From contig JAWHQI010000730.1 in assembly GCA_033032865.1 (NCBI GenBank), positions 124,001 through 188,000 of the forward strand: a stretch of DNA of 64,000 nt. Direction: 5' to 3'. Position numbers and translations under genes: made by a program. Below are positions 4,201-60,328 of this stretch, piece after piece. Numbering within the stretch: the first letter of the stretch is position 1; each line of letters begins with the position of its first letter. The notes under the pieces were generated by a model that was not told the origin of the DNA, did not search any database, and saw nothing but the letters and a program-made list of their open reading frames with translations. The DNA comes from Dactylorhiza incarnata (taxonomy: Eukaryota > Streptophyta > Magnoliopsida > Asparagales > Orchidaceae).

Positions 4201-5271
4201 TGTATGGGGTAAAATCAGGCAACCAGATCAAAAGTTATTGCTCTTTAAAGTTTGAGTGTCATTTGGAGCTAAATCTCTCACTTTCACTACAAACCGCATT
4301 TAAAATTCTTTCATTTTGAAATTTATGTGTCATTTGGAGATAAATCTCGCATTACCACAACAACCCACTGTATATCGACCTCAAACGACTTTGAATGGGT
4401 TAAATTCGTTGTCCATTGGATTTTGGGCTCCGATCTCATTACGAAATGGTATTGTGGGCGAAAATCGGACAACCGGATAAAAAGTTATGGATCTTTAAAG
4501 CTTAGGTCTCCTTTCGAGCTAAATACATTATTAAAAACCTGCTGTATATTGACCACTAAACAAACTAGATGGGTAAAATTTGCTCTCCATTGGATGCAGG
4601 GCTCCGAGCTCTTTCCAAAAAGGCGTTGTGCGCAAAAATCGGACAAACAGATCAAAAGTTATGGCTGTTACAGTTTATGTGTCAAGAGGATCCCTCGTCA
4701 CCATTGCAATCCCCTATATATTGACCACTAAAATGAGCTGGAAGGGTTTATAATTGTGCTCCATTGGATGTATGCCTCCGAGCATATTCCGAAAAGGTGA
4801 TGTGGGCAAAAATCAAACATACAAATCAAAAGTTATGCCTGTTAGAAGTTTATGTGTCATTTGGAGCGAAATTTCGCATTACCGCAGTAACGCTCTAAAT
4901 ATTGACAACTAAATGAACTGGAATGGGTAAAACTTGTGCTCCAAAGAATGTAGGGCTACGAGCTCATTTCGAAAAGGTGTTGTGTGGTCAAATCAGGAAA
5001 TCAGATCAAAAGTCGTTGCGGTTTAATGTTTGAGTGTCATTTGGAGCTATATCTCTCATTTTTCCCTACAACCCACTGTAGATCAACCGCAAACGAACTG
5101 GAATGGGTAAAACTTGTTGTCCAATGGATGCAGGGCTCCGATCTCATTTTGAAAAGGCGTTGTGGGCAAAAATCAGACAAACGGATAAAAAGTTATGGAT
5201 GTTTGAAGTTTTGGTGCCAATTGGAGCAAACTCCCTCATTTCTACCGCAATCCACTATACCTCGACCACTA
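1240..5271. repeat. Satellite array, ~180-bp monomers in a ~1.5-kb higher-order repeat
   Basis: Diverged monomers of about 178-184 bp repeat throughout, marked by motifs such as AAAAGTTATGG, GTGTCATTTGGAGCTAAAT and ACTGGAATGGGTAAAAC. The diagnostic stretch GTTGTATGGGGTAAAATCAG occurs at 1243, 2750 and 4196. This gives one HOR of about 1507 bp (eight monomers, one lengthened) and a second of about 1446 bp; the second lacks about 50-60 bp near 3955. The third unit is cut at 5271 by E1. No gene is seen; the open frames here are short and differ from monomer to monomer. Nucleosome-sized monomers in an HOR are typical of plant centromeric satellites, but a centromeric location is inference. Confidence 0.93.
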
Positions 5272-6044
5272 TGTTTACCCAGAAGACCGCTCTCAATAGG
5301 ATTACTCGCAGACCGTGCGGTTTGCGGATCCAGTTCGCTCGGCTCAGGTTGCACAGGGTCCACCAACACCAACTAGCACAGGCCAGGCGGTTTGACATAA
5401 TTCAGACCGCCTCCAAGTACTAGAGATAATCCAGGCCCAAGTCCAACAGGGCAAGTCGCGGTCTCAAGTCGGAGATCGGGCGGATTGTGCCATAGAGACA
5501 AGCCAAGGTTCGAGGTCAAAGAACAAGCCGCGATCTCAAGACGGAGACCGCTCGGATCGCATCACCGCCTTGGTCGTGTCATCCTCAGCCTCTGGTCAGG
5601 CAAGTCGAAAGGGCAAGCCGCCAAGGCGCGCCTCTTTCTTTTCCTTCTTTGTGTATCCCGTCACCGCCTGCCCGTTTCTCCTATACCTGGGCAGGCGGTT
5701 ATTTTATCCCTGCCCGTTCGGGCAGGCCCCCAAGCCTATAAATAGGGGGCGGCACTGTTCCCAAGGCACGCACACTCGAATCTAGGAGCTCGCTTGTTTG
5801 AGCTGCGGACTCGAGTTTCCCGTCTTGCGGACTGTCTGACCGGCCGGCTTCTCTTTTCCTGCACTTGTAACCACTGTAACCGCCTCATTTTAATCAAAGG
5901 AAAGCCCGTCACAAGAGTGGCATTCGGCGTGACGGGCGAAGTCTGGCCTTGACCGCTGCTAGCGGTCTCATTTTCCCCACCTAAAAAGTAACCGGCAACC
6001 CGCAGCCTCCCATTTCCTTCGGAGGTGCGCTTTCGAACTCAACA
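5272..6044 (+). repeat. E1 5' LTR
   Basis: 773 bp, TGTTTACCC to CAACA. U3 carries two GC-rich inverted repeats just before the TATAAATA at about 5737. The terminal module has the paired arms CCCGTCAC/GTGACGGG in degraded form. It differs from the 3' LTR at roughly fifteen sites by eye, so E1 is not among the newest insertions here. Confidence 0.95.
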
Positions 6045-6080
6045 GAAACACGCGACCTTCAGATCGCGGATTGTCGGTGA
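6045..6080 (+). other. E1 5' leader after the LTR; no TGG primer-binding site
   Basis: The bases after the LTR read GAAACACGCGACCTTCAGAT and on to GCGGATTGTCGGTGA. This leader is conserved in E2, E3 and E4. It contains a CGCGA/TCGCG stem but no TGG in its first thirty bases, which a tRNA 3' end would require. In E1 a deletion joins the leader directly to mid-gag. Confidence 0.6.
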
Positions 6081-9000
6081 GTGGAACCAGCCCCTAATAA
6101 TTTCAGAGAGCCTCGCCTGCCAGCTTTCAATGGGGAGACTGATCCCACGGTTTATTTACAAGCCTTCGAGTCAGCCATCGCTCTCAGAACCTTAACTGAT
6201 GTAACTAAGTGCAAGCTCCTTGTAACCTCCTTTGAAGGACAAGCAAGGGAATGGTTTTACGGGTTGCACCCCAGGTCAATCCGTTGTTTCGCTGAGCTGC
6301 GAAGGGAATTCCTGCTGAGATTTTCTACCTCAAGGAAGAGAAAGAGTGGCCCAGCGGCCCTATTCGATATAAAACAACGAGAAGACGAGACGTGGGCTCG
6401 TTTTGTAGATCGCTTCCAGAAAGAGATCATGGAGGTCCAAAATGTGGATTCGGAGCTATATAGGGTTGCCCTCATCCATGGCCTAAGAGAGGGCCCCCTA
6501 AAATTCGAAGCAAATATAAGGGACCCTAGGACTTATCAGGAAATGATAAGTTTGGAAATATGTTTATCAGAGGAGAGAAGAGCAATCCGGACTACGCCGC
6601 AAAGCTGGTAAGCGACAAGGAGCAGTAAAATCCGTCCTTCCATCATCCGCCATCGAATCAGTCCCACTTCGAACCCCGATCCCAAAGGGGGAGAAACTAC
6701 AAAAACAAGCAACCATTCATGGGCCATCAGCGGTTTCAAGATCAGAAACCACCATTGGCCGTCGCTCCCACTCCATCTGCTCCCCTTCCGCAAATCATGC
6801 CAGTGTACTTACAACAGTATGCCACGCAGCCACCTCCAGTCATTCCATCCACTCAATATGATGACTCGCAAGAGTCATTCACTCCCTTAAACATCACAAT
6901 GGACGAAGTGGTCCAGATTCTGCAAAAGAGGCCAGATTTCAAAAGGCCCGCTCCTCTGAAGTCGGATATCCGCAGTCGAAATCCGAACCTTTATTGTGAA
7001 TATCATAAAGAAGGGGGACATCTAACCGAAGACTGTCGAGCTCTTCATTTGCTTATAGAGAGACTCCTTGGAGAAGGAAAGCTCCGGGGTCTAGTTCGAA
7101 AAGATACAACTGCTGAGCCAATTGCCGAGAAGAGAAAGGAGAAAGAAACAGTTGAAGTGACCTGGGAATGCGCCGACGTCGAAGATGCCGGCTGCTATGG
7201 TGACATCCATCCTTCTACCGAATGCGTCGAAGTCAATGATGTGGGCCCCTTAGGGGACATCTATTGTATTCATGGAGGAGCTGGAGCGGAATCATCTCGC
7301 AAATCCAGCATCGCGAGAGTTTTAAAGCAGGAAGTAGCAGCCACCTCAAGTTCTCCTCCCGAAAGCACTATTGTCACCTTTGGTCAGGACGATCTTCCCC
7401 CCAATGCCAATCCTTTTGACGATGCGGTGGTCATCAAGGCCGTCATCGAAAACTATACAGTCCACAAGATTCTGATTGATACCGGCAGCTCCGTCAATCT
7501 CCTTTTCCGCCTGACTTTCGAGGCCCTAAAGACCGGAAAGCCTTTGCTTTCCACCGACGGGCCCCTCTGCGGTTTTTCTGGGGAGAAGAAGGAAGTAGAG
7601 GGTTCAGTAAAGCTCCTGGTCTCTCTTGGAGGAGTAATAAAGTTAATCAATTTCGTGGTAGTGGATGCCCCGAGCAACTACTATGCCATCTTCGGGAGGC
7701 CAATTCTCAATGCATATTGGGCAGTAGTGTCTACCTTTCACCATGCCCTCAAGTTCGCTGCCGAAGGAAAGCAGTATCGGGTCAGAAGCAACCCAAAGGT
7801 GGCTCGGGAGTGCTACGTCCGAACTGTCAACATGATCACTGACGTTCCACTTCCCGAGGTCGTGGCTGAGGTTTTGGAGATTGCTAAGTCTTCAGGGGCT
7901 GCTGAGGAAGGAAAAGATCAAGAAGGGGCTCACTTGGAACCTGCCCAAGCGACCCAAGAAGTTCCCATTGATGAAGAGGCAGAAAAGAAGTTGGTCATCA
8001 ACGCTGAGTTGCCAGAGGGGGAGAAAGTGGAGCTAATCTCCTGCCTGTTGGAGAATCTGGACATCTTCGCTTGGTCAGCGGAGGATATGCCAGGAGTAGA
8101 TCAAGACGTGGCTTGTCATCATCTAAATGTATCTCCTGAGTTCAAGCCTGTCCAGCAAAAGAAGAGAGAAGTGGCAACCAAGCTGGCGTTGCCCATCAGA
8201 GAAGAAGTTTCCAAGCTACTGAAAGCGGGTTTTATTTCTGAAATTCAATATCCCACGTGGATGTCGAATGTTGTAATGGTTAAGAAACCCGGTGGGAAGT
8301 GGCGCATGTGCGTGGACTTCACTAAACTTAAAAAAGCGTGCCCTAAAGATTGTTACCCTTTGCCTCGGATAGATGTCTTAGTTGATTCCGCGGTTGGGTA
8401 TGGCTTTATGAGTTTTCTCGATGCTTTCTCAGGGTATCATCAAATTAAAATGCATAAACCTGACATCCCGCATACTTCACTTATCACGAACGATGGGTGT
8501 TACTGATATCTCGTAATGCCCTTCAGTCTTAAAAATGCGGGCGCAACGTACCAAAGAATGATGGATACCGTTTTTAAGCATCAAAAAGGCAGGAATTTTG
8601 AAGTTTACGTTGATGACCTCCTTCTAAAAAGTAAAACATTCTCGTTGCACTTGAAAGACCTCGTAGAGACGTTCGCTACTCTACGAAGGTTCAAGTTAAA
8701 ACTAAACACGTTGAAATGTGTGTTTGGGGCAAACAAGGGGAAGTTTCTTGGGCATCTCTTAACTCCTAATGGTCTTGCACCAAATCCAGACAGGGTGAAG
8801 GCCATCCTTGATATGGCCCCTCCTCGAAATACTAAAGAAGTTCAGCAGCTTGGGGGAAGATTGGCAGGATTGAGCAGGTTTATCTCCAAATCCGGAGATA
8901 AAAGTGCCCCGTTCTTTAAAATACTCCGGGGGGGATCAAGGTTTGAGTGGAGCGAGGAGTGTAACAAGGCTTTTGAGCAGCTGAAAGAGCAGTTAACCTC

Positions 9001-11149
9001 GACTCCATTACTCCAAAGTCCCCGTGAGGGAGAAATGTTATTCTTATATCTGGGAGTTGGCCCGGATGCGGTGAGTTCTGTCCTCGTTCGGGAGGAGAAG
9101 AGGAGGCAGTTTCCAATATACTATGTCAGCCATATTCTAAAAGATGCAGAAACCAGATATTCGATCTTAGAGAAACTGGCCTTGGCCTTGGTTGTGTCTG
9201 CGCGAAGGCTTCGCCCTTATTTTCAGGCTCATTCCGTCCAAGTTATTACAGATCATCCTTTGAAAAATATTCTTGAAAAGCCAGATCATTCAGGGAGGTT
9301 AGCAAAATGGGCTATTGAACTAAGCGAATTTGAGATATCATACATCCCACGAACATCGATCAAGGCGCAAATCCTGGCAGACTTCTTGGTGGATACAACA
9401 GAGCCTAGATCAGAGCAGGTAGTGCAATCTCCTTTGGCTTGGATCATTTATGTGGACGGGGCTTCTGGCAGAAACTCCGTGGGAGCTGGGGTAGTTCTGA
9501 TCAGTCCAAATGGCATCAGGCTGGAGCAAGCTATCAAATTCTTCTTTTCAGTTACAAATAATCAGGCAGAATATGAAGCACTTTTGGCTGGGCTGAGGCT
9601 TGCGAAAGAGCTAGGCATAGAACATGTACATGTTAGAACTGATTCACTGGTAATGGCCTCTCAGGTCTTGGGAAATTATGAGACAAGGGAGCCAATTCTG
9701 AGGAAATACCTGCTGTTAGCCAAAAAAGAAATTGGAAGATTCAAGTCATTCATCATCGAGCACATTCCAAGGACACAAAATGAGGAGGCAGATGAGTTGT
9801 CAAAGTTCGGTCTTCCATCTGGGGGAGTGACCTCTGAACTTTTTCATCCGGCAACAGATGGGGCAGAACACATGCAAATTGATCATAATCCTTCATGGAA
9901 GGACCCCTATGAGCTGTTTCTATCAAAGGGGGAGTTCCATCATTCCATCAAAGATCAGAGAAGATTCAAAAGGAAAGCGGCATATTATTATCTGATAGCG
10001 GGAGTACTCTACAGAAAAACTTTGATCTCTCCCTCAGCACGATGTGTTTCGGAGGATGAAATCTCAACCATACTTCAGGAAGTTCATTATGGGGAGTGCG
10101 GTAGTCATTCAGGAGCAAAGACTCTGGAGAAAAGAATTATAAGGCAGGGATATTTTTGGCCAACCATGAGAAAGGATGCTGAAACATTTGCCAAACGGTG
10201 TGTTCAGTGCCAAAAGTTCGCTCCTCTTCAGCATTTGCCTGCTCAGTCACTCAGATCAATAACTGCGTCGTGGCCTTTTGCGGTATGGGGAATGGATCTT
10301 ATGGGACCTTTCCCAATAGCTAGCGGTCAACGTCGCTTTATCATTGTGATGATTGACTATTTCAGTAAGTGGATTGAGGCAAAGGCATTAGCAAAAACTA
10401 CCACTCAAATTGTCAGAAACTTCATCTGGGGAGAAATAGTCTGCCGGCATGGAATTCCGCTGGCAATCGTCACTGATAATGGCCCACAGTTCAATAATCC
10501 GGAGATGATAAACTTCTGTGATCAGGTGGGAATTGATCTTCGATTTGCCTCAGTACATCATCCAAGAACAAATGGCCAAGTAGAAGCGGCAAATAGGCAA
10601 ATCCGACAGCTCCTAATGAAAAGGATTTTGAATCAAAGGGGAAATTGGGCAGACCAGCTTCCTTCCATCCTCTGGACTCTTCGTACTACCCCGTCTTCAG
10701 CTACCGGGGAGACACCATTCAAATTATCTCATGGCTCGGAAGCTGTTGTTCCTGTAGAGTTTGAGGTGGTCACTCCAAGAGTTGTGTATGCAAAAGAGGG
10801 AGGAAAATCATGGATAGATGAAAATGATGAGGCCATCAAGTATAGTTTGGATCTGATCGAAGAACTTCAGGACGAGGCAACAATCAGACAAGAAGAAGTT
10901 AAAAGGAGGATGGCAAAGTACTTTGACAAAAATGTTAGGGTAAAGCATCTTGCGGTCGGCGACGTTGTACTAAAAAATGTTGATGCAGCAGCCCGAACGG
11001 GCAATGTCGGGAAGCTAAATCCTAATTGGGCTGGACCTTTCATCGTCATGGAGGTACTAAAAAGTGGGGCTTACCGCCTCCAAACAAGCGAAGGAGAAGA
11101 CATCTCGCGCACCTGGAGCGGCGACGATCTCAAACGGTTCTATCCCTAA
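6073..11149 (+). pseudogene. E1 gag-pol polyprotein, broken
   Basis: In intact form this is the element's capsid, protease, reverse transcriptase, RNase H and integrase polyprotein. About 600 bp of the gag N-terminus is deleted by comparison with E3. Further lesions are a 1-bp deletion after 6555, a TAA at 6626-6628 and a TGA at 8504-8506 replacing a Cys codon in reverse transcriptase. Still visible are the gag core (6150-6550), a CX2HX4HX4C knuckle, the protease DTG, the RT YVDD near 8610, a gypsy-type RNase H, a second archaeal-type RNase H (YVDGAS) and an integrase with the zinc-finger cysteines and all three D,D,E residues. The paired RNase H domains place it in the Tat lineage. It cannot make a full protein. 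Confidence 0.93.
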
Positions 11150-11264
11150 AATGTCTTCTTTACTTTCCTGCAATTTTTTGGATGTTTTAATAAGAAGCCC
11201 TATACTGACACTTCTTCATGTCTGATTTCTTTTCCTTTTTATACTTTCTTATACATCAACCTCA

Positions 11265-11487
11265 CTGAACCGCGGAGACATCGCCAAGTTCCGCTCGAAC
11301 CCCCTCGGATTATAGTCATTAGCATAAAACCACAAAGATCATGTGTAGCGGGGAGTTTTCGCACACATGTAGTGGTTGCTTGCCAATTCCCGTGCGGTGG
11401 TCTTCGGAACCTTGGATCCCGGCTGATATCCGACACACCCCTGCATCAAGGGAGGTCTAGGTGAATGTTGGCTCTGTCATGCCCCGA
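11265..11487 (+). other. E1 conserved non-coding block after pol
   Basis: About 220 bp with no open frame, shared with E2, E3 and the other family's E4. It lies between the pol stop and the hairpin units and includes CGCTCGAACCCCCTCGGATT-like and GGGGAGTTTTCGCACACATG-like stretches and the end segment CCCTGCATCAAGGGAGGTCT. Conservation beyond that of the neighbouring spacer suggests a role in RNA structure or processing; this is inference. Confidence 0.6.
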
Positions 11488-11506
11488 GAGGGATATAGTT
11501 ACAGCT

Positions 11507-11910
11507 TTGATGATGTTTCTGAGGAAAGCAATGTCGGTATAGCCCCCGCGGCACAACCACACCTGCCCAACTGATCATCCTAGTCTGTGACCATCGAATA
11601 CTCCTAGGTACTCTCAAGCGATGTCTAAGCGGGACCCACAACTGAGTTGATCTCTTTGAGGAAAGCAATGTTCGCCGCCTAGGCCCACCTGCCCAATTGA
11701 TCAACTCGGCTTGTAGCCCTAGGCAAGAGAGCAGTCGAGTCGCTTACAGCCCTTATGACCACTTGAGGAAAGCAATGTTCGCCGCCTAGGCCCACCTGCC
11801 CGCTTGGTCATCTGGGACTGTACTTGTCTTTTTCTTTGTTCCTACAGCTCTTATGACCACTTGAGGAAAGCAATGTTCGCCGCCTAGGCCCACCTGCCCA
11901 CTTGGTCATC
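11507..11910 (+). repeat. E1 four hairpin units downstream of pol
   Basis: Four units share the core GAGGAAAGCAATGT...ACCTGCCCA. Each is bounded by its own inverted arms: GATGATG/GATCATC (one mismatch in this copy), GAGTTGATC/GATCAACTC and two of ATGACCA/TGGTCAT. In the first unit the middle of the core is replaced by a different segment (TCGGTATAGCCCCCGCGGC). See the E4 copy for exact arm positions. Confidence 0.8.
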
Positions 11911-12036
11911 TGAGTCTGTAGTCATCTTTTATTGCATTACAGGGAATTATCTCACCTTATATGGTTATTATAGACCATTTAGAGAAAAGAGCAGGATTCT
12001 TATCACAAACCGGCCAACTTAATACTCAAACCGGGC
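11911..12036. other. E1 spacer, left part
   Basis: AT-rich non-coding sequence ending at the E2 insertion point; CGGGC at 12032-12036 is the left TSD copy. The spacer resumes at 25602. No gene seen. Confidence 0.7.
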
Positions 12037-12814
12037 TGTTGAGGCTGAGATCGCTCCTCCGAAGGAAACCGGAGGCTGCGGGTTGTCGGTTACTTTTTAA
12101 GTAGAAAAAAAGGGAGACCGCTGGCAGCGGTCAAAACCAGACTTCGCCCGCCGCGGCGAATGCCACTCTTGCGACGGGCTTTCCTTTGATTACAAAAAAG
12201 AGGTTACAGCGGGCTGCAAGTGCAGGAAAAAAGAAGCCGGCCGGTCAGACAGTCCGCAAGACGGGAAACTTGAGTCCGCAGCTCAAACAAGCGAGCTCCA
12301 AGATTCAAGTGTGCATGTCTTGTGAACAGTGCCGCCCCCTATTTATAGGCTTGGGGGCCTGCCCGAGCGGGCAGGGATAAAATAACCTCCTGCCCGGGTA
12401 CAGGAGAAACGGGCAGGCGGTGACGGGATACACAAAAAGGGGAAGTAAATAAGCCGCGCGACTTGGCGGCTTGCCCTTCCGACTTGTCTGACCAGTAGCT
12501 AGAGATGAGGAGGCCAAGGCGATGAGGCTACCCGCTCGGTCTCTGCTATGAAACCGCGGCTTGTTCTTTGACTTTGGACCTTGGCTGCCTCTATTGCATA
12601 GGCCGCGCGACTTCCGACTTGAGACCGCGGCTTGTCCTGTTGGACTTGGGCTCTGATTACCTTTAGTACTTGGAGGCGGCCTGAGTTGTCACAGACCGCC
12701 CGGCCTGTGCTAGCCGGAGCCGATAGACCTCGTTTGACCTGAACCGGGCGACTTAGACCCGCAAACCGCGCGGTCTGGGAGTAACCCTCCTGGAAGCGGT
12801 TTCCCGGGTAAACA
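12037..12814 (-). repeat. E2 3' LTR
   Basis: On the minus strand it runs TGTTTACCC (12814) to CTCAACA (12037). It is followed on the plus strand by TAATCCCCGC, the complement of the purine-rich segment that primes plus-strand synthesis. The terminal module has CCCGTCGC arms, in place of the CCCGTCAC found in E0 and E1. Confidence 0.95.
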
Positions 12815-12899
12815 TAATCCCCGCATATTTTTAAATTTCCGTGAAGATTTCGAAAATATCAGTGCTAGCCGGAGATCACGCCGACTTCACCCTGTTGGT

Positions 12900-12906
12900 T
12901 ATAAAT
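12900..12906 (+). promoter_or_regulatory. TATA box of E2 gene 1
   Basis: TATAAAT, about 98 bp upstream of the gene 1 ATG at 13004 and outside the LTR. The ATG at 12905 overlaps this box, so it is unlikely to be the start codon. Confidence 0.6.
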
Positions 12907-13003
12907 GCTCCAGAAGCTTCGACTCTGGCATAACTCTATTGTTACCACGAGTCACTATTCGCCTGTTGCGGTTAGAACTTTCGGTTTGCACAACTCGAGA
13001 AAG

Positions 13004-15022
13004 ATGGTGAACCTGATGGCTGAACTCGAGCTTCTTGAGAAGTCCGGAAAGAACCGTGATAGAGACCGCTCGAAAGAGAAGAAGAAGAAGAAGACGAAGC
13101 GGCCTGATAAGACGGTAACAATTGCCTTTACGAATAAACCGACCGACCTGCCTGTATGTTTAACAATTGCTTTATCATCTAAACAGGAGGATAGACCGAC
13201 CGAACTGCTCCCTGAGCCAGCAGTTGTTCCGCCGACTAAGGATGAGGCGGGTAGCTCGAACCCGCCGACTAAGGATGAAGCGGGCAGCTCGAACCCGCCC
13301 CCAATCTTCTCTGTCCAGGGAAACAACCCGCCTTCTCCACCGGGTAGGACAGACCTGGAAGTTGCTTCCCCGAAAGGCGACGGGGATGAGTCCTTCAAGA
13401 TGGAAGTTACCCCGTCAGGGGTCTTTCATTTGAAGATAAGGGATGAAGCGGGAGAAGCAGTTGACTCCCCCAAGCCGGACGGTCTGGATTCTCCCATAAT
13501 CAATGTTGAGGACAGCCCGGACAAGCCAACTGTCCCGAAGTCGAAGAAGAGGAAGATGGAGGAGTCCGCTGCGGACAGGCTCCTCCAAAAAATGAAGAAG
13601 CTTAAGGCCAAGAATAAGGCGGCCTCTGGTAAATCGAGAGCGGTCAGGCTGCAGGGCAAATCGCGTGAGAATGAGGTCTCGGAAGGCCTGACCACTCCCT
13701 CCCCTCAGCCGAACGACCAGGCTCTGGTTGATGCGCATAGTATTTCTGTGAGCGACCTTCTCAAAGATTTTGACTCTTTTCAGAAGCAGGATGACCAGCT
13801 GAGAACTTCCGCCGAACTGCAGGCTGCCAACCCGCCAGGGGAAAAAAGATCCGCTCTGTCCGAGGATGCGACCAGCCTTAAGGAGACCATCCTCCCTAAG
13901 GTTGCGGCTGCAGAATCCATGCCGGCCTCTGTCGATCCCGTGATTGCCGGTCTGCGATTTATGCAGGTGAAGGCGGAGCGGGTAAGAGATCAACTCGCCA
14001 GGCCGCCCCCGCCGCAGCCCAACCTCTTGCTTCAAGGTAAAAAGGCAGCGGATTTCCATTCCGTTCGTTTTTTCATACCGCGACCTCGAAACAAGTCGCG
14101 CGCTGCGTTATTGAATCCATCGCCTAGCTTCTTTCCCTCCGCTACTCAATTCTCTGCTGCTAAGCGGAGGCAAAGTGAAAGATCGTGGAGAGAACAACGC
14201 AGGAAATTCGATACCGAGCTAACAAGGCGACCTGCCCGCCCGAGTTCAATTCAAACCGCCGCGGCTCGTAAGCGAGGAGAATTTAATGAAAGCGGTTTCA
14301 TGTTGAACAATTTTTGACTGTTTCTCTTTTTTGTAGATGATCGTGATTCCATCCTGGAGTCGGGCGAACTGGTGTCCTACCTTCCTCCCTTTGAACCACC
14401 TCTACTGCGCTCCCCTCTCCCGGATACTCGGATGGAGACCGAGATGTCCCAGCTTCAGAAGAATCTGGAGACGCTTGCCAAGCAGCTGAGGGCAGTGGAG
14501 GAGAGGGAGAAAGTCGCCCAGGACGAGAAAGCCGCGATTCGGGTAGAGCTGGAAGCCGAGCGGAGAGAGCGCCGGGAGAAAGAGAAGGAGCAGCAGGACC
14601 AGGTGGCAGCGTTGACCGCCCGGATTGATCGCGGGAAGAAGGAAGTCCGCAAGCTCGAAGATGACTGTGCCTACTATAGGGACAAATACCTGCATCTGGC
14701 CAAGGAAACCGGCGGAAGTCGGCGCCCTTTAAACACGGTTGATGAAGGCCGGCGAGGGTCAATCCGCCCGGATGCAGGGACGAGCTCGTCTCTTCCTGCA
14801 GCCGGGACAATCCGCCCAGTTGCTAGTGTTCATGAGTCCGCAGCGAACTTACCTACTCGCACGATTCCTGCGTCGCGAGTGGAGAGAGACGCCGCGCGGA
14901 TTCATAGCATGATCAACCGCCTTAATCATAATATGAACCAAATGCAGGGGACTGTCCTTCAGATTGGCGATCATGTCGCGCGGCTTCACAGAGAGGACGA
15001 ACCGAACGATACCCGCCAGTAA
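13004..15022 (+). CDS. E2 gene 1 (antisense to the element): basic coiled-coil protein, two exons
   Basis: Predicted join 13004-14036 and 14337-15022, 572 aa. The donor CAAG|GTAAAAAG and acceptor TTTTTTGTAG| give a phase 1 junction, and both exon lengths fit one frame. The same structure is seen in E1, E3, E4 and E5. The N-terminus is Lys/Arg-rich (about residues 20-45), followed by a low-complexity acidic/Pro region with a tandem copy of a PPTKDEAGSSN-type segment. A second basic, NLS-like cluster lies in the middle. Exon 2 begins with a long Glu/Arg/Lys coiled coil and ends with a conserved tail, ARLHRED. I do not recognise the family. A nuclear, oligomeric, possibly nucleic-acid-binding protein is inference. 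The start was chosen as the first ATG well downstream of the TATA box and conserved among copies. Confidence 0.72.
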
Positions 15023-15336
15023 TGAGCGGTGTTGGGATACAACTTTGTAATATGGTTTCAATTCGGTCCTTTGGATAATTCGCCTGAATCTGATTTTGTG
15101 ATATTCGACCTGTTTACTCAGGCCGTGCGGCTTCAATATTCAATTTTACTTTTTTAGCCTTCATGCTGTTGATTGATGCCTGAGTTATTTTTCATAAGCC
15201 GCTCGGCTTGCCTTCGTGGCTTTGTAATTCGCTTTTTTCAATTTATGCAATCTATCGCTGACTTTTGTGATGATATATTCGCGCGGGTTGATCATCTAGC
15301 CGCGATTTGACCTTTGCTAAGTGCAGATCATCCGTT

Positions 15337-15346
15337 CTTATAAGTA
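15337..15346 (+). promoter_or_regulatory. TATA box of E2 gene 2
   Basis: CTTATAAGTA, about 40 bp upstream of the gene 2 ATG. It is conserved in position in E1, E3, E4 and E5 (TATAAG), so gene 2 seems to be transcribed independently of gene 1. Confidence 0.6.
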
Positions 15347-15382
15347 GCGTCCTTCCGAAGTTCTTCTTACCAGAATTTCGAG

Positions 15383-18768: not shown

Positions 18769-18789
18769 CAGCTGTAATTATATCCCCTC

Positions 18790-19010: not shown

Positions 19011-19125
19011 TGAGTTTGATAGATATGAGAGAGTACAAAGAGGAAAATATCAGACATGGAGAAGTGTCAGTATGGTGCTTTTTTATTAAAATATCTCAAA
19101 AAACTGCAGGAATAAAAAGGACATT

Positions 19126-45031: not shown

Positions 45032-45066
45032 CTGGAAATCGTGAGAATGACTTCGGCAAATTCTAT

Positions 45067-47464: not shown

Positions 47465-47560
47465 TGCTGAAGAATTGCCGGTCTTAAAAATTCTGACCGC
47501 AACCGGCGAGTAATATCCCGTGATTTCAGAAAAAGCAACGCAGAATGAATTCTCTGGCTC

Positions 47561-47568
47561 TCTTATAG
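47561..47568 (-). promoter_or_regulatory. TATA box of E4 gene 1
   Basis: Reverse-strand CTATAAGA about 97 bp before the ATG, between gene 1 and the 3' LTR. E5 has the same sequence at 61249-61256. Confidence 0.55.
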
Positions 47569-47651
47569 AATTCAAGACAAGTCGGATGCGGTCTCCCGGT
47601 CAAAGCTAATATTTTCGAAATCCTCTGAGATTTGAAAATATGCGGGGATTA

Positions 47652-48487
47652 TGTTTGCCCGGAAAACCGCTTCTCGGTTTGAACCATTATCAGACCGCTC
47701 GGACTCCTGGGCTAAGCCGCTGGGTCCTGATATCGGCGGTTCTCAGTTCAGAAAGGGCCAGGCCGGGCGGCCTGGTGTCATTTCCGGATCGCCCCCAAAG
47801 GGATAAGATCGTCAAAGAGCCAAGGCAAGAAGTTCATCCGCGGTCTCAGCAAGAAGGCCGCGCGGGTTGTCCCATAGAAACTCGAAGTTCCAGCCCCGAA
47901 GAACAGGCCGGGGCTCCAGATCGAAGGCTATCCAAGTTACCTCTTGAAGATCGGCTAAGTCATGACCAGAAGGCAGACCGCGGCCTCAATCTCCAAACCG
48001 CGCGGTCTGCATTATTGACTTGGTCCCGGTGTCCTCAGCCGCAAGCAAGACAGGTCGGGAAGGCAGGCCGTCAGATCGCGCGGCCTCTTTCTTTTTTTTT
48101 CTTTGTGTATCCCGTCACCGCCTGCCCGTTTCTCCTGTACCCGGGCAGGAGGTTATTTTATCCCTGCCCGATCGGGCAGGCCCCCAAGCCTATAAATAGG
48201 GGGCGGCACTGTTCACAAGGCACGCACACTCGAATCCAAGAGCTCGCTTGTCTGAGCTGCGGTCTCGAGTTTCAGGTCTCGCGAACTGTTGACCGGCCGG
48301 CTTCTGCTTTCTCGCATTTGTAACCGCTACTTTTCAATAAAAGGAAAGCCCGTCGCAGGAGTGGCATTTGCCGCGACGGGCGAAGTCTGGCCTCGATCGC
48401 TGCTAGCAGTCTGAATTCTCTAACTAAATAGTAACTGATAGTCCGCAGCCTTCAATTTTCTTCGTAAGCGCACTTTTGAATCGAACA
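47652..48487 (+). repeat. E4 3' LTR
   Basis: 836 bp, preceded by ATGCGGGGATTA (purine-rich segment) and followed by TSD CCACG (48488-48492). It differs from the 5' LTR by one T in a T-run and two substitutions by eye. Confidence 0.95.
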
Positions 48488-51400: not shown

Positions 51401-53489
51401 CAGACCAGAAGCGGTGAGTTCCGTCCTCGTTCGGGAAGAAAAGAGGAGGCAGTTTCCAATATACTATGTCAGCCACATCCTTAAGGATGCAGAAACCAGA
51501 TATTCGATCCTGGAGAAACTGGCCTTGGCTCTGGTTATGTCTGCGCGAAGGCTTCGCCCTTATTTTCAGGCTCATTCCGTCCAAGTTATTACAGATCATC
51601 CTTTAAAAATTATTCTTGAAAAGCCAGATCATTCAGGGAGGTTGGCAAAATGGGCTATTGAACTAAGTGAATTTGAGATATCGTACATCCCCCGAACAGC
51701 AATCAAAGCGCAAATCTTGGCAGACTTCCTGGTAGATACAACAGAGCTTAGTCCTGAACAGGTGGTACGATCTCCTCTGGCTTGGATCATTTATGTGGAT
51801 GGGGCTTCTGGCTGAAACTCCGTGGGAGCCGGAGTAGTGTTGATCAGCCCAAATGGCATCAGGCTGGAGCAAGCTATCAAGTTCTTCTTTCCAGTTACAA
51901 ATAACCAGGCAGAATACGAAGCACTTCTGGCTGGGCTAAGGCTTGCGAAGGAGTTGGGCATAGAATATGTACATGTTAGAACCGATTCACTGGTGATGGC
52001 CTCCCAGGTCTTGGGAAATTATGAGACAAGGGAGCCGATTCTGCGAAAATTTCTGCTATTAGCCAAAAAGGAAATCGGAAGATTCAAGTCATTTATTATC
52101 GAGCACATCCCGAGAACGCAAAATGAGGAGGCAGATGAATTGTCAAAGTTCGGTCTTCCATCAGGGGGAGTGACCTTTGAACTCTTTCATCCGGCAATAG
52201 ATGAGGCAGAACTCATGCAAATTGATCATAATCCTTCATGGAAGGATCCTTACGAGTTATTCCTATCAAAGGGGGAGTTCCACCATTCCATCAAAGATCG
52301 GAGAAGATTCAAAAGGAAGGCGGCATATTATTATCTAATAGCAGGAGTTCTCTACATAAAAACTTTGATTTCCCCCTCAGCACGATGTGTTTCAGAAGAA
52401 GAGATCCCTATCGTACTTCAGGAAGTTCATTCTGGGGAATGTGGTAGCCATTCAGGGGCAAAAACCTTAGAAAAAAGGATCCTGCGGCAAGGATATTTTT
52501 GGCCGACTATGAGAAAGGATGCTGAAGCATTTGCCAAGCGGTGTGTGCAGTGCCAAAAGTTCGCTCCTCTTCAGCATCTTCCCGCTCAGTCGCTTAGGTC
52601 AATAACTGCACCCTGGCCCTTCGCAGTTTGGGGGATGGATCTCATCGGACCCTTTCCAATGGCTAGCGGTCAGCGCCGCTTTATCATAGTGATGATTGAC
52701 TACTTCAGTAAGTGGATCGAGGCTAAGACACTGGCAAGAACTACTACCCAAATCATTAGAAACTTCATCTGGGGAGAAATAGTCTGCCGACACGGAATTC
52801 CGCTGGCAATTGTCACTAATAATGGTCCACAATTCAATAATCCCGAGATGATAAAATTTTGCGATCAGGTTGGAATTGACCTGCGGTTTTCCTCAGGCCA
52901 TCATCCAAGGACCAATGGTCAGGTAGAAGCAGCCAACAGGCGAATCCAGCAGCTCCTGATGAAAAGAGTTTGGAATCAGAAAGGAAACTGGGCAGATCAA
53001 CTTCCCTCCATCCTTTGGACTCTTCGTACTACATCTTCAGCTACAGGGGAGACACCATTCAAACTGTCTCATGGCTCGGAGGCTGTTGTTCCTGTGGAGT
53101 TTGAGGTGGTCACTCCAAGAGTTGTGTACGGAAAAGAAGGAGGAGAAGCGTGGGTAGAATACAATGACGAGGCCGTCAAGTATAGTTTGGATCTAATCGA
53201 AGAACTTCAGGATGAGGCAACAATAAGGCAAGAAGAAGTTAAAAGGAGGATGGCAAAGTACTTTGACAAAAATGTTAGGGTAAAGCATTTTGCTGTCGGC
53301 GACGTCGTATTAAAAAAGGTTGATGCAGCAGCCCGAACAGGTAATGTCGGGAAGCTAAATCCTAATTGGGCTGGACCTTTCATCGTCAAGGAGGCACTAA
53401 AAAGTGGGGCTTATCGCCTCCAAACAAGTGAAGGAGAAGACATCCCGCGCACCTGGAGTGGCGACGATCTCAAACGGTTCTATCCTTAA
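48488..53489 (+). pseudogene. E3 gag-pol, remainder after E4, broken
   Basis: Resumes the gag core in frame at 48493. Lesions: TAG at 50023-50025 after protease, a 1-bp deletion near 50975 just past YVDD, and TGA at 51813-51815 in the second RNase H. A codon is also missing near 53032. In integrase the second catalytic Asp is Asn (AAT at 52818-52820, giving VTNNGPQF), so this enzyme would be dead even with the frame open. The RT also has Asp-to-Glu and Leu-to-His changes in the otherwise conserved CVDFTKLNKACPKDC segment. Domains otherwise match E4. Confidence 0.93.
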
Positions 53490-53601
53490 AATGTCTTCTT
53501 TACTTTCCTACAGTTTTTGAGATATTTTAATAAGAAGCTCCATACTGACACTTCTCCATGTCTGATGTTTCCTTTCTGCATTTTCTCATATATCAAACTC
53601 A

Positions 53602-53822
53602 CTGAACCACGGAGACATCGCCAAGTTCTGCTCGAACCCCCTCGGATTGTAGTCATTAGCGTAAAACCATGAAGATCATGTGTAGCGGGGAGTTTTCGCA
53701 CACGTGTAGTGGTAGCTTGCCAATTCCCGTGCGGTGGTCTTCAGAACCTTGGATCCCGGCTGATATCCCACACACCCCTGCATCAAGGGAGGTCTAGGTG
53801 AATGTTGGCTCTATCATGCCCC
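53602..53822 (+). other. E3 conserved non-coding block after pol
   Basis: Same ~220-bp block as in E1, E2 and E4. Confidence 0.6.
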
Positions 53823-53844
53823 TTGGGGGATATAATTACAGCTT

Positions 53845-54244
53845 TGATGATCCTTCTGAGGAAAGCAATGTCGGTATAGCCCCCACGGCATAACAACACC
53901 TGCCCAACTGATCATCTTAGTCTGTGACTATCGAATACTCCAAGGTACTCTCGAGCGATGCCTAAGCGGGACCCACAACTGAGTTGATCTCTCTGAGGAA
54001 AGCAATGTTCGCCGCCTAGGCCCACCTGCCCAATTGATCAACTCGGCTTGTAGCCCTAGGCAAGAGAGCAGTCGAGTCGCTTACAGCCCTTATGACCACT
54101 TGAGGAAAGCAATGTTCGCCGCCTAGGCCCACCTGCCCACTTGGTCATCTGGGTCTGTACTTGTTTCTCTTTGTTTCTACAGCTCTTATGACCACTTGAG
54201 GAAAGCAATGTTCGCCGCCTAGGCCCACCTGCCCACTTGGTCAT
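53845..54244 (+). repeat. E3 four hairpin units downstream of pol
   Basis: Arms GATGATC/GATCATC, GAGTTGATC/GATCAACTC, and ATGACCA/TGGTCAT twice. The first unit has the family I variant core. Unit order is the same as in E1 and E4. Confidence 0.8.
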
Positions 54245-54372
54245 CTGAGTCTGTAATCATCTTTATTGCATTACCAGGGATTATCTCGTCCCATATGGTC
54301 ATTATAGACCATTTGGAGGAAAAAGCAGGATTTCTATGTGCAGCATAAACCAGACGACTTAATACTCAAACT

Positions 54373-54640
54373 GGGCGGTTTGAAATAAGCAGGTACCAGG
54401 GCTTTCAGACGGTCTGATTATTAAACCTGGAGGTCTGGTTATTAAACCTGGCGGTCTGGTTATTAAACCAGGCGGTCTAAAATCAGCAGGTTCCAAAGAT
54501 GTCATACGGTTCGGTTTTTAGACCGGGCGGTTTGAAATAAGCAGGTACCAGGGCTTTCAGGCGGTCTGGTTATTAAACCAGGCGATCTAAAATCAGCAGG
54601 TTCCAAAGACGTCATACGGTTCGGTTTTTAGACCGGACGG
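54373..54640 (+). repeat. E3 spacer tandem repeat (~152 bp and a shorter copy)
   Basis: GGGCGGTTTGAAATAAGCAG starts copies at 54373 and 54525. Within the first, a ~21-bp segment with GGTCTGGTTATTAAACC is repeated about three times. E1 has a single version at 25597 onward. Confidence 0.7.
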
Positions 54641-54797
54641 TTTGAAGTGAACAGGGTATCATTAAGGTATAAGGTAAATATCAGGGAAGCAAGCATAATC
54701 ATGACCGGCCGACCTTATTATCCGGATTATGAATTTATCATCCTTATGGGTTTCCATTCAATCCAATCGGATAATCACAGGATCTTTTCAATCAGGC

Positions 54798-55016
54798 GGT
54801 TATGATTCTCGTTGCAAGTATTAAACCTGCTAAACGCACGAATTCTATATACAGCTCGTACGGCTTGTCAGGTTATGATTCTCGTTGCAAGTATTAAACC
54901 TGCTAAACGCACGAATTCTATATACAGCTCGTACGGCTTGTCAGGTTATGATTCTCGTTGAAAGTATTAAACCTGCTAATCGCACGAATTCTATATACAG
55001 CTCGAACGACTTGTCA
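54798..55016 (+). repeat. E3 three copies of a 73-bp tandem repeat
   Basis: Copies start at 54798, 54871 and 54944 (GGTTATGATTCTCGTTG). The first two are nearly identical and the third has a few changes. E1 has one copy near 25875. This is a copy-specific expansion. Confidence 0.85.
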
Positions 55017-55672
55017 GCCAATGTTATATATAACGGTCATATAAATTGATCAGATTAAATGTTAATCGCACGGTCTATCAATTGATCTTCTTGGGACTGG
55101 ATATTCTGTTTACGGTCGCACGGCTTGATTATTTCAAATTCCGGATCGGTTATCTGATTGCATTCACGGAAGTGGGATTTACAGCGATGTTAGCTGCAAG
55201 TCGCCTGAGTTAAAACACTGACCGCTCGGTTTGATAATTGTTCTCATGACTTGTCCTTCTTTATCCTGGAAAGCAAGTATGCCGGGTCTAGTAGTAACCG
55301 CGCGGCTCAATTGTGTCCGGTCTCCGGGATGTCGTAATACATTGGTAATAAGTTAGCACTTTCTCAGAATAAATCGGATAAATTCGATTCGGATAAAAAG
55401 AAGCAAGCTATGCGAGTGGGTTTTTAGATACTTTACCGGAATCTTATGAAGATCGCTATCTTAACCGGATAAGTTGACATTAAGTCGCACGACTTGGTTC
55501 GATTTAACACAGAAAGAGATCGCAAACAATCGCAAGTAAGTCGCAGAAGGTAGACGGATAGACAGGTAAAAGCTTTTTATTTCATTATCAAAACATTGTT
55601 TACATTATGTTTTAAGCCGTCCGGCTAACAACATCAAGCCGACGGCTATTCAAAATAAAAAGCAAAATACAG
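55017..55672. other. E3 spacer before gene 2
   Basis: AT-rich and non-coding, with dispersed palindromes such as ACCGCTCGGT (about 55220) and ACCGCGCGGC (about 55309). No gene seen. Confidence 0.65.
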
Positions 55673-56956
55673 CTACTGATTGTGCGACTTGAGTTTCTTA
55701 GACGCAGGAGCACTTGAATGTTCGCTGCCATCAATCGAAACATCAGGAGAATAACTCGCTACCCGACGAGGATGAGCTGCTCAATTCGCTCGATTTGCGG
55801 CCAGCATCTTCTTCAGAATCGCTGGATTCAGACTCCGAGCCACTCTCACCACTCTTAGCCGCTCCGGGTTCTTCGACCTCGTCATCTCCATCATCGCTCT
55901 CTTCCGAACTGGATCCGTCGGCTTTATTCTTTCCTTTGGCTTTCCGCCTGATCTTTTCTAACTTCCTTTGCAAAATCGGATAGGCGTCCGAGAAGGAGAA
56001 ATGCTCGAAACCGGGCGCGAACCCGTTGAGCTCCCGCAAGCGGTTAAAAGCATTATCAATTCCCTCGGCGACATGAGGGAAGAGTTCCTGCTGATAGACC
56101 GGGTCGGTCTCATCATACTTAGCCTGCAAAAGAAAAGAGTGGTAAGACCGTGCGGTCTGAGAACATTGGTGTTGATGCTGACCAGGTGATGACTTACCGA
56201 CTCGGCTTCCTTTAGCCGCGCATTTTCTTTCTTCAGTTCGGCAATTTCCTTCGCTTGGAGAGCGTTTTCTTTAATCAACCTCTTTAAGGTCATTCCCATG
56301 AAAACGTTGGTGATAAAGCTCTCGGCGCCAACCCGCGCGCGCCTCTCTGGCGAGCTCTTCCTCAGGAATTTTCCTCAGCCTCCTGAAGTTCCGTCGGCCG
56401 AACATAGCGATGCTAGCGGCCTCGGCATGCCGGCCCGACTTCTCATTCGCCCAGTGGGGAAGCGCAGTAGAGATCTGGACAGTATCGCTGTCCGGGTGCC
56501 AGGTCAAGACCGGGTGGCCTTTTAGATCCTTCACCTTGCTGAAGGAACGAAGGGCGGCGAAGTCGCTTGAGGAACCCGAATCCTCCCCATCAGACGGCAG
56601 CGGCTTGTTCCAGGATTGCCTCTTCCTCTTCTCCGTCTGAGTCAAAACTAAACCGGCCGGACTGATCGGCTTGTTAGCAGGAACAACGGCTTGGGCTACA
56701 AAAGGAGAAGAGTCAGCACAAGAGACCGAGCGGTTAACATTAAAGTCGGAAGCAAAGGGAGAAGAGTCATCCGCTCATCACGGAGCGGAAGCCGCGCGAG
56801 CAGCGGACTGTCAGTCATGTGCTTCTCGACGAATTCATCCAGCTCGGCCTTTGTCAAACGGCACTCCTCGAGGTCTGCAGAGTGAAAGGCCACAGCGGCT
56901 TCAGAGCGGGTAGCAGAGGTCTTCGCAGGTCGCTTCGACTGGCGCTTTACTCCCAT
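55673..56956 (-). pseudogene. E3 gene 2 (antisense), core domain deleted
   Basis: Starts like E2 gene 2 (ATG at 56956), but a deletion of nearly 600 bp near 56770 joins the codons just after LRDERM to the middle of intron 1. Almost all of the PF04195-like region is lost. There is also a 1-bp insertion in a GC run near 56335 and a 2-bp loss near 55757. Splice sites of intron 2 remain. Intron 1's remnant and intron 2 each hold a palindromic site (56725-56734 and 56147-56156). Confidence 0.88.
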
Positions 56957-56993
56957 CTTGAAATTTTGGTAAAAGTAATTTCGGAAGGGCGCT

Positions 56994-57000
56994 ACTTATA
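56994..57000 (-). promoter_or_regulatory. TATA box of E3 gene 2
   Basis: Reverse-strand TATAAGT at the conserved place about 40 bp before the ATG. Confidence 0.5.
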
Positions 57001-57321
57001 AGAGCGGATGATCTGCATTTAGCAAAGGTCGAATCACGGCTAGACCGGTCAACCCGTGCGGGTACATCATCACAAAACTCAACTACAAAGACCGTGTAAT
57101 TCAAACAAGCGAATTAAAGAATCACGAAAACAAGCAGATCGGTTTATGTAAAATAACTCACAGGCATCAATCAACACAACAAGAAGGCAAAAAAGTAAAT
57201 TCAAATATTTTAGCCGCACGGCCTGAATGGCAGATCGAATATTATAGAGTCAGATTCAAGCAAATTGTCCAAGAGACCGAATAGAAATATTATTACAAAG
57301 TTCATATCTCAGAGCCACTCG

Positions 57322-59352
57322 TTACGGACGGGTATCGCTCGGTTCATCCTCCCTGTGAAGCCGCGCGACATGATCGCCGATTTGAAGTACAGTTCCCTGC
57401 ATTTGGTTCATATTATGATTAAGGCGGTTGATCATGCTATGAATCCGCGCGGCATCTCTCTCTACTCGCGTCACGGGGATCATGCGAGTAGGCAAGGTCG
57501 CTGCGGACTCATGAACACTAACAACTGGGCGGGTTGTCCCGGCTACAGGAAGAGACGAGCTCGTCCCTGCGTCCGGGCGGCTTGACCCTTGCCGGCCTTC
57601 GTCAACTACGTTAATAGGGCGCCGACTTCCGCCGGCTTCCTTGGCCAAATGAAGGTATCTGTCCCTATAATAGGCACGGTCCTCTTCGAGCTTGCGGACT
57701 TCCTTCTTTCCACGATCAATCTGGACGGTCAGCGCAGCCACTTGGTCTTGCTGTGCCTTTTCTTTCTCTCGACGCTCTCTCGGCTCGGCCTCCAGCGCTG
57801 CTCGGCTTTCCCTCCGTTCGGTTTCCAATTCAACCCGAAGAGCAGCTTTCTCATCTTGGGCGACCTTCTCTCTCTCCTCCACAGCCCTCAGCTGCTTAGC
57901 AAGGGTTTCCAGATTCTTTTGAAGCCGGGACATCTCGTCATCCATCCGAGTATCCGGCCGAGAAGAACTCAGCAAGGGTGGATCAAGAGGGGGAAGATAG
58001 GTCACCAGTTCGCCCGGCTTCGGGATAGAGTCACGGTCATCTGCAATAAGAGAAAATAGTCAAGGAGTATTCAAAAGGAAACCGCTTTCATCGAATTTTC
58101 CTCGCTTACAAGCCGCGGGAGTTTGAATTGAATTCGGGCGGACGGGTCGCCTTATTAGCTCGGTATCGAACTTTCAGCGTTGTTCTCTCCACGATCTCTC
58201 ACTTTGCCTCCGCTTAGCAGCAGAAAGTTGAGCAGCGGGGGGAAAGAAGCTGGGCGACGAGTTCAACAACGAAGCGCGCGACTTGTTTCGAGGCCTCGGC
58301 ATGAAAAAAACGAACGGAGTGGTAATCCGCTCCCCTTTTACCTTGCAGCAAAAGATTGGGTTGCGGCGGGGGCGGCCTGGCAAGCTGATCTCTTACTCGC
58401 TCCGCCTTCACCTGCATAAATCGCAGACCGGCCGTCACGGTATCTTCAGGTACCGATATGGTTCTTTCAGTCGCGACCTCGGGAAGGATGGCCTCCTTAA
58501 GGCTGGTGGCATCCTCAGACAAGGCGGATCCTTTCCCTCCTGGCGGGTTAGCAGCCTGCAGTTCGGAAGAAGTTCTCAGGTGATCATCTTGCTTCTGAAA
58601 AGAATCAAAATCCTTAAGGAGGTCGCTTACGGAAATGCTATGAGCATCAATTGGAACCTGGTCGCTCGGATGGGGAGGAGTACTCAAGCCTTCCGAAACT
58701 TCATTCTCGCGCGACTTGCCTTGCAGGCTGTCCGCTTTCGGTTTCCCAGATGCTGCCTTATTCTTGGCCTTCAGCTTCTTCATCTTCTTGAGAAGTCTGT
58801 CCGCAGCGGACTCCTCCTTCTTTCTCTTTTTTGACTTCAGGACGGTTGGTTTGTCCGAGCTGTCCTCGACGTTAATAACTGGAGCTTCCAGATCGGTCGG
58901 CTTGGGGGAGTCAACTGCCTCTCCCCCTTCATCTCTAATTTTTAGATGAAAATCCCCGGACGGGGTGACCTCCATCTTGAAAGACTCATCCCCATCGCCT
59001 TTTGGGAAGCAGTCTCCAAGTTTGTCTTTCCCGGCGGAGAAGGCGGGCTGTTCCCTTTGTCAGAGAAGGTTGGGGGATCAGCTGGGGGCGGGTTCAGACA
59101 GCTCGCCCCATCTTTAGTCGACAGGACGACTGTTTGCTCAGGAAGCAGTTCGGTCGGCTTGTTCTCCTCCTGTTTAGATGACAAGTCGATTGTCAACCCT
59201 GCAGGCAGGTCGGTCGGTTTACTCGTAGAAGCAATTGTTACAGTCTTATCAGGCCGCTTCGACTTTTTCTTCTTCTTCTCTTTCGAGCGGTCTCTCTCGC
59301 GGTTCTTTCCGGACTTCTCAAGAACTTCGAGCTCAGCCATCAGGTTCACCAT
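57322..59352 (-). pseudogene. E3 gene 1 (antisense), one frameshift
   Basis: Exons 59352-58342 and 58040-57322, with donor CAAG|GTAAAAG and acceptor TTATTGCAG. A 1-bp deletion near 59008 breaks exon 1 (its length is short by one base). Otherwise the basic clusters, acidic region, coiled coil and RLHRED tail match E2 gene 1. Confidence 0.85.
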
Positions 59353-59449
59353 CGTTTTCGGGCTGTTCAATCCGAAAGCCCTAACCGCAATAGGCGAGAA
59401 GTGACTCGTGGTAACAATGGAGTTATGCCAGAATCGAAGCTTCTGGAAC

Positions 59450-59456
59450 ATTTATA
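59450..59456 (-). promoter_or_regulatory. TATA box of E3 gene 1
   Basis: Reverse-strand TATAAAT about 98 bp before the ATG, as in E0, E1 and E2. Confidence 0.55.
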
Positions 59457-59541
59457 ACCAACGGGGTGAAGACGGCGCGGTCTCCGGCTAGCACTGATAT
59501 TTTTGAAATCTTCACGGAAATTTAAAAATATGCGGGGATTA

Positions 59542-60315
59542 TGTTTACCCGGGAAACCGCTTCCAAGATGATTACTCGCAGACCGAGCGGTTTGCGGATC
59601 TAAGTCGCCCGGCTCAGATTAAATGAGATCCATCGACACCAGCTAACACAGGTCGGGCGGTCTGGCATAACTCAGACCGCCTCCAAGTACTAAAGATAGT
59701 CCAGGCCCAAGTCCAGCAGGGCAAGTCGCGGTCTCAAGTCGGAGGTCGCGCGGTTTATGCCATGGGGATAAGCCAAGGTCCAAAATCAAAGAACAAGCCG
59801 CGGTCTCAAGACAAAGATCGAGCGGGTAGCATCGTCGCCTTGGCCGCATCATCTTTAGCCTCTGGTCAGACAATTCGGAGGGGCAAGCCGCCAAGCCGCG
59901 CGCCTTCTTTCTTTCCTTCTTTGTGTATCCCGTCACCGCCTGCCCGTTTCTCCTGTACCCGGGCAGGCAGTTATTTTATCCCTGCCGTTCGGGCAGGCCC
60001 CCAAGCCTATAAATAGGGGGCGGCACTGTTCCCAAGACACGCACACTCGAACCTAGGAGCTCGTTTGTTTGAGCTGCGGACTCGAGTTTCTCGTCTTGCG
60101 GACTGTCTGACCGGCCGGCTTCTCTTTTCCTGCACTTGCAGCCCGCTGTAACCACTTCTTTCTAATCAAAGGAATGCCCGTCGTAGGAGTGGCATTTGCC
60201 GCGGCGGGCGAAGTCTGGCCTTGACCGCTGCTAGCGGTCTCATTCTTCTACACAAAAAGTAACCGGCAACCCGCAGCCTCCGTTTTCCCTCGGAGGTGCG
60301 ATCTCGGACTCAACA
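59542..60315 (+). repeat. E3 3' LTR
   Basis: 774 bp, TGTTTACCCGGG to CAACA, followed by TSD ACGTC (60316-60320). Confidence 0.95.
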
Positions 60316-60328
60316 ACGTCGACCACTA
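60316..60328. repeat. 13-bp satellite remnant between E3 and E5
   Basis: ACGTCGACCACTA is a piece of the satellite monomer (compare 2311-2323). Its first five bases are E3's TSD and its last five, CACTA, are the expected E5 TSD. The two elements thus landed 8 bp apart. Confidence 0.9.

Follow-up and report, generated by a model that had tools for sequence, protein, structure and literature searches.

The element RIRE7 reportedly shows "preferential insertion" into TrsD, as the title of one study puts it, and host factors are known to tether the integration machinery of retroviruses and yeast elements. At the level of single bases, the accessible part of a study on the HIV-1 integrase variant K258R describes two hot spots, at alphoid consensus positions 6 and 69, which lie in distinct repeat members and match no known binding motif (PMC8933506). 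Excerpts of the plant literature call integration sequence-independent, with 1008 of the 1024 possible 5-mers found among target duplications (PMC6317226), and report varied duplications for CRM elements, whose integration is held to be random or not sequence-specific (PMC3059260). In the available sections, an analysis of junctions between transposable elements and arrays in rye gives enriched motifs and no monomer map (PMC4857426), and a hop centromere study contains nothing on monomer positions (PMC12371157). We recognised no report of single-base mapping of plant LTR insertions onto satellite monomers in the open-access literature searched. In orchids of the genus Dactylorhiza, Retand elements contribute, according to an excerpt, about 6% of the genome (PMC9366187); their marks, again from a partly accessible source, are antisense TRP28 (PF04195) open reading frames, present in 97% of clusters, and long regions between pol and the 3' LTR (PMC11963269).

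Junctions and their register in the satellite

The window, that is, the whole 64-kb stretch of DNA analysed, contains a tandem satellite with a 180-bp monomer that is interrupted by long LTR retrotransposons (E0 to E5). Lag counts put the higher-order unit of the satellite at about 1448-1509 bp. The features are as follows.

329..1239, plus strand: E0, a further member of this lineage, represented by its 3' LTR; GTGTT on the right, left side beyond the window
1240..5271, plus strand: left part of the satellite, 180-bp monomer, unit of ~1448-1509 bp
2315..2323, plus strand: third satellite CGACCACTA, unoccupied
5267..5271, plus strand: left target site duplication of E1, CACTA
5272..31809, plus strand: E1, Retand-type, LTRs 5272-6044 and 31034-31809, split by E2
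12037..25596, minus strand: E2, inserted into E1 downstream of pol, target site duplication CGGGC at 12032-12036 and 25597-25601
31810..31814, plus strand: right target site duplication of E1, CACTA
31810..33308, plus strand: satellite separating E1 from E3, starting with the right CACTA of E1
33304..33308, plus strand: left target site duplication of E3, ACGTC
33309..60315, plus strand: E3, LTRs 33309-34083 and 59542-60315, split by E4
34769..48487, plus strand: E4, member of the E5 subfamily, inserted into the gag of E3, target site duplication CCACG at 34764-34768 and 48488-48492
60316..60320, plus strand: right target site duplication of E3, ACGTC
60316..60328, plus strand: 13 bp of satellite separating E3 from E5, ACGTC (E3 duplication) plus GACCACTA
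60324..60328, plus strand: CACTA adjoining E5, predicted left target site duplication; right copy beyond the window
60329..64000, minus strand: E5, 3' LTR 60329-61164, continuing past the window end

With a slash marking each break, the left junction of E1 (5271/5272) reads CGACCACTA/TGTTTACC and its right junction (31809/31810) AACTCAACA/CACTAAATGAAG. The left junction of E3 (33308/33309) reads TATACGTC/TGTTTACC, and the stretch between E3 and E5 reads CTCAACA/ACGTCGACCACTA/TGTTCGATTC, with breaks at 60315/60316 and 60328/60329. Matching target duplications are present on both sides of E1 and E3, and E5 and E0 are visible from one side; after position 1239, the right flank of E0 reads GTGTTGTATGGGG. 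The initial annotation had placed E1 after CGACCACTA with a duplicated CACTA, both copies of which we read, and E5, on the minus strand, directly after the same sequence and adjoining CACTA, as is the case at 60328/60329. Since the right flank of E5 falls outside the window, its CACTA duplication is predicted rather than seen, and the flank is predicted to start with CACTAAATGAAC.

We found that removal of E1 and E3, with one copy per duplication retained, leaves 5534 bp of satellite, in which the E1 and E5 sites are 1502 bp apart, the one higher-order unit that had been proposed; the distance from E1 to E3 is 1494 bp. The separation of E3 and E5 by 8 bp in the same monomer, with ACGTC as the E3 duplication, was likewise correctly described; this offset of E1/E5 from E3 is not one helical turn. 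In monomer coordinates, E1 and E5 share phase 69, E3 is at 61 and the E0 flank starts at 135, which sets the E0 insertion point 66-70 bp from that of E1, the value varying with the side of the inferred duplication that is used. E0 provides a fourth satellite junction (1239/1240) that had been left out of the earlier count and lies outside the cluster. Three of the four satellite junctions fall within 8 bp, two of them at the identical base.

All clustered sites (E1, E3, E5) lie in a single monomer type reading ACGTCGACCACTAAATGAACTTGATCGAG, with one- or two-base variants. It makes up 4 of the 32 monomers present at the E1/E5 position (alignment to the periodic monomer; a few are truncated), and two of its four copies are empty: direct reading agrees with the initial annotation that 2319-2323 (CACTA) and 3819-3823 (CTCTA) carry no insertion. 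The satellite holds three copies of CGACCACTA (2315, 5263, 60320), two of which are occupied exactly at their end, for a motif picked post hoc; a fourth copy (15664) is inside E2. A 29-base pattern of the satellite had zero exact matches in viral or prokaryote contigs, as expected of a plant repeat, and an Rfam scan of the window returned nothing at gathering score.

The earlier statement that random insertion would rarely give such a pattern was set against uniform random placement of four insertions, with 2,000,000 trials per coordinate system. In 180-bp coordinates, the probability was 0.033 for any two identical positions, 0.025 for three within 9 bases and 0.0057 for both; the corresponding values in 1502-bp coordinates were 0.0040, 0.00038 and 0.000095. 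With effective sites reduced fourfold, as under a general sequence preference, the joint probability was 0.078 (180-bp) and 0.0014 (1502-bp), and an array-specific null for two insertions sharing their left 9 bases gave 0.0019 (3 pairs) and 0.0037 (6 pairs). All of these clustering probabilities are post hoc, the statistic having been picked with the data known, and n is 4. The statement is therefore borne out by the joint probabilities and tempered by the post hoc choice, the sample of four and the position of E0. It is possible, though we hold it at clearly less than an even chance, that four independent, near-random insertions produced one coincidence, which was spotted since the window was read for oddities. 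Such a coincidence fits the small sample, the 3.3% (two coincide) and 2.5% (three within 9 bases) of trials in monomer coordinates and the placement of E0; the joint event in either coordinate system and the array-specific null argue against it.

The closeness of E3 and E5, which are 13 bp apart if the duplication is included, also raises the possibility that whichever arrived first improved the neighbouring DNA as a target, through altered chromatin or intasome retention, so that only the agreement of E1 with E5 would be coincidental. The same lineage self-nests twice here (E2 in E1, E4 in E3), and an autoinsertion preference is described for some Ty3/gypsy families in the accessible part of one source (PMC6911290). 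However, E1 at the identical base of the neighbouring unit is left unexplained by this mechanism, which we consider improbable.

Lineage and structure of the elements

E1 and E5 had been assigned to different families, which turned out to be overstated. LTR identity is 87.6-88.2% between E1 and E3 and 94.2% between E4 and E5, compared with 79.6-83.1% across the groups (E0, E1, E2, E3 versus E4, E5), where 129-163 bases are gapped, or 255-293 for E0, which carries a duplication. The E1 LTRs are 81.5-82.7% identical to those of E4 and E5 over aligned bases, with 129-163 gapped bases. For the integrase pieces (400 codons), each of the six pairings of E1, E2, E3 and E4 gives 89.0-91.7% identity. 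Judged from these sequences, E0 to E5 are best classed as one lineage, in which the E1 and E5 groups are sister subfamilies with features of Retand (Ty3/gypsy, Tat clade). LTR-pair K2P distances of 0.024 (E1), 0.018 (E3), 0.009 (E2) and 0.002 (E4) give ages that agree with the nesting order (E2 in E1, E4 in E3); E5 is undated.

Pfam identified RVT_1, RT_RNaseH_2, RVT_3, Integrase_H2C2 and rve in the pol pieces of E1 and E2, and none of the chromodomain family by which chromoviruses (CRM and kin) would be recognised. Antisense in E1 and downstream of pol, PF04195 (Transposase_28) was matched at 26716-28557 on the minus strand (E=1.2e-7). One antisense open reading frame each was scanned in E1 and E4, and that of E4 (45392-47599) gave no Pfam family. 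In E4, about 6.4 kb separate the end of pol (41273) from the start of the 3' LTR (47652), with tandem repeats at 41859 and 42111. Among 120 listed relatives of the integrase, the 17 with the best scores are without exception unnamed proteins of the orchid Platanthera zijinensis (Orchidoideae), with up to 77% identity over the full piece, which makes an orchid the probable host.

Several structural details were additionally observed. The 3' end of the E0 LTR (966-1240) carries a tandem duplication of 138 bp without mismatch (275 bp, 100% match) that runs up to the satellite junction. The LTRs of E1 and E3 lack it, with 141-145 bases gapped when aligned. Shortly after pol, about two copies of a unit with a 96-98 bp period are found in E1 (11745-11930), E2 (18347-18520), E4 (41859-42055) and E3 (54082-54255), and by eye these repeats resemble each other between the subfamilies; tandem repeats of such elements are said to be family-specific in the accessible part of one study (PMC11963269). 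E1 is without the start of gag: not far past the primer site, its sequence (6081-6090) connects, across roughly 10 bases, to a point that lies some 590 bp further along in E3 (34120 to 34712).

A primer-site stretch begins 3 nt past the 5' LTR, at 6047-6065, 34086-34104 and 35606-35624 on the plus strand and at 24798-24816 on the minus strand. We take it to be 19 nt of plant tRNA-Phe, presumably positions 37-55, with an exact match in E1, E3 and E4 and one change in E2. The match is internal and ends in the T loop, not at the tRNA 3' end; the implied primer would be a tRNA cleaved in its T loop. Half-tRNA primers are reported only for Ty1/copia groups, as far as the available excerpt of one source goes (PMC6317226).

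Possible causes of the clustering

Over 200, 500 and 1000 bp, units ending at the four equivalent points share 91.5-95.5% pairwise identity. For the two units next to E1 and to E3/E5, the values are 94.0% (200 bp), 94.8% (500 bp) and 95.5% (1000 bp); this pair ranks third, second and first among the six at these lengths, leading by 0.1 point over 1000 bp, and the other pairs range from 91.5 to 95.4%. These identities bear on a rearrangement in which template switching or gene conversion within the array would have produced the left E5 junction by copying or joining from that of E1. Such an event would account for the 14 bp common to both junctions (TCGACCACTA plus the LTR-terminal TGTT), and the unit pair is the most alike over 1000 bp. 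However, E1 and E5 are opposite in orientation and belong to different subfamilies, their sequences part right after TGTT, the unit pair loses its lead over the shorter lengths, and the last 20 satellite bases at the two sites differ by one base, the 11th from the junction. We therefore regard this origin as highly improbable. Duplication of one insertion, which had been named as a refutation of the initial proposal, left no clear sign in unit identities, orientation or subfamily, which falls short of strict exclusion.

Features of the target DNA were also analysed. E2 entered its host element at the centre of a palindrome of 18 bp whose arms are separated by 2 bases, TCAAACCG-GG-CGGTTTGA (12017-12036 joined to 25602-25621). 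Scored over 10 pairs centred on the duplication, palindromy was 5/10 for E1 (matched by 7.6% of satellite positions), 6/10 for E4 (2.0%), 3/10 for E2 (48%) and 1/10 for E3 (95%); over 8 pairs with five centres, it was 7/8 for E2 (0.26% of 12949 positions), 5/8 for E4 (12.6%), 3/8 for E1 (83.6%) and 4/8 for E3, the last unranked because of a short right flank. The E2 target is a strong palindrome and the E1 and E3 sites are not, and palindrome targeting was rejected as a common cause of the cluster. The palindrome preference described for plants in the accessible part of PMC6911290 is matched by the E2 target (top 0.26%) and partly by that of E4; the cluster does not follow it. A shared primary motif of the targets was likewise rejected: the longest match outside the satellite pair was 8 bases (TAAATGAA, E1/E4), on opposite strands and at different offsets.

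A/T dinucleotides in the monomer follow a 10-bp rhythm, which was reached by 18 of 2000 column-block shuffles; this control was used in place of plain block shuffling (0/300), which destroys the 180-bp repeat. Target centres fall at phases 7, 9 and 7 of 10 (the last being E0, seen from one side), at most 1.8 bp from the A/T peak at 8.7. If a nucleosome were set by such a rhythm, the major groove would face outward at these points, as known from retroviral integration studies. Rhythm and phases are weakly compatible, at three sites, with rotational setting on a nucleosome. Monomer phase alone as the cause is weakened, because E0 occupies a different part of the monomer and the clustered insertions, all three, share one monomer type. 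Rotational setting leaves the preference for one monomer type unexplained, and local sequence must contribute.

The explanation that we favour, to which we give about even weight, is that the point used by E1, E3 and E5 is a local hot spot for an integrase predicted to be common to all three. Because the integrase pieces of E1 to E4 are 89-92% identical, one integrase preference could serve all elements, and it is the simplest of the causes initially proposed, with the clustering probabilities being post hoc. E5, whose pol lies beyond the window, would carry the integrase of its LTR sister E4, and the three insertions would be independent events (K2P 0.024 for E1 and 0.018 for E3; E5 undated). 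The source of the hot spot may be the local DNA, namely the sequence and shape of the ACGTCGACCACTAAATGAA stretch, as displayed on a nucleosome with a fixed rotational setting; the intasome would there make its two strand cuts, at a distance of 5 bp, across the exposed major groove. The location of E0 elsewhere in the monomer and the two empty copies of the monomer type (2319, 3819) are contrary to such a hot spot. Further points against it are the E1 and E3 sites, which are no strong palindromes, the limit of 8 bases on matches between targets outside the satellite pair, the offset of E3, which differs from a helical turn, and the plant surveys cited above.

The initial annotation had additionally suggested a satellite-binding host factor, which would tether the integration complex at this monomer type. 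Three clustered sites in one monomer type of the unit would fit such a protein, but it is superfluous if a single integrase type serves all elements: with the integrase nearly the same in E1 to E4, the "two families" can be united without such a factor. We consider it extremely unlikely.

The shared-integrase hot spot could be taken further, in that a chromodomain-free Retand integrase would recognise a single point, exact to the base, in one of the monomer types that make up the higher-order unit. The satellite would then be a docking site reused by several subfamilies, and evolution of the unit would decide where elements land; we hold this extension to be rather unlikely.

Overall, the clustering is confirmed as an observation, and a non-random cause is likely and partly supported, on four insertions and post hoc statistics. 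From the initial description, the junctions, the register and the empty sites stand, whereas the separate families and the count without E0 do not, and the E5 duplication is a prediction. If true genome-wide, higher-order satellites would be a natural, highly replicated target in which the choice of plant integrases can be read at single-base resolution. The contributions of DNA sequence, nucleosome rotation and host tethering could then be separated, and it would be shown that guidance within satellite DNA is possible for elements without a chromodomain.

Comparison with known systems

The elements resemble Retand, as characterised in the accessible part of PMC11963269, in the additional RNase H in pol, the antisense open reading frames (one with PF04195), the long region between pol and the 3' LTR and the tandem repeats. 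The two pol pieces scanned are alike in being without a chromodomain match. The primer site differs, matching what is presumably an internal stretch of tRNA-Phe instead of a tRNA 3' end.

RIRE7, ATHILA and CRM/Cereba/Quinta are similar in that Ty3/gypsy copies lie in satellite or centromeric chromatin; in the excerpts available, their targeting is regional, via the integrase or CR domain, and not to one base of one monomer type (PMC11302176, PMC12477314). For nested plant LTR elements, the accessible text describes a weak palindrome preference and nesting in 3' regions (PMC6911290). E2 fits both, unlike E4, which is in gag, and the sites of E1, E3 and E5, which are not notable palindromes.

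A hot spot in satellite DNA would be of a kind already known from K258R; for Retand in plants, we found no report in the open literature. The K258R work concerns many insertions made in infected human cells by a mutated integrase of a retrovirus, compared with natural plant elements and n = 4 here. The two cases are alike, by the accessible part of that study, in the base-level preferred points within a satellite monomer (~171 bp there) and in the involvement of distinct repeat members (PMC8933506).
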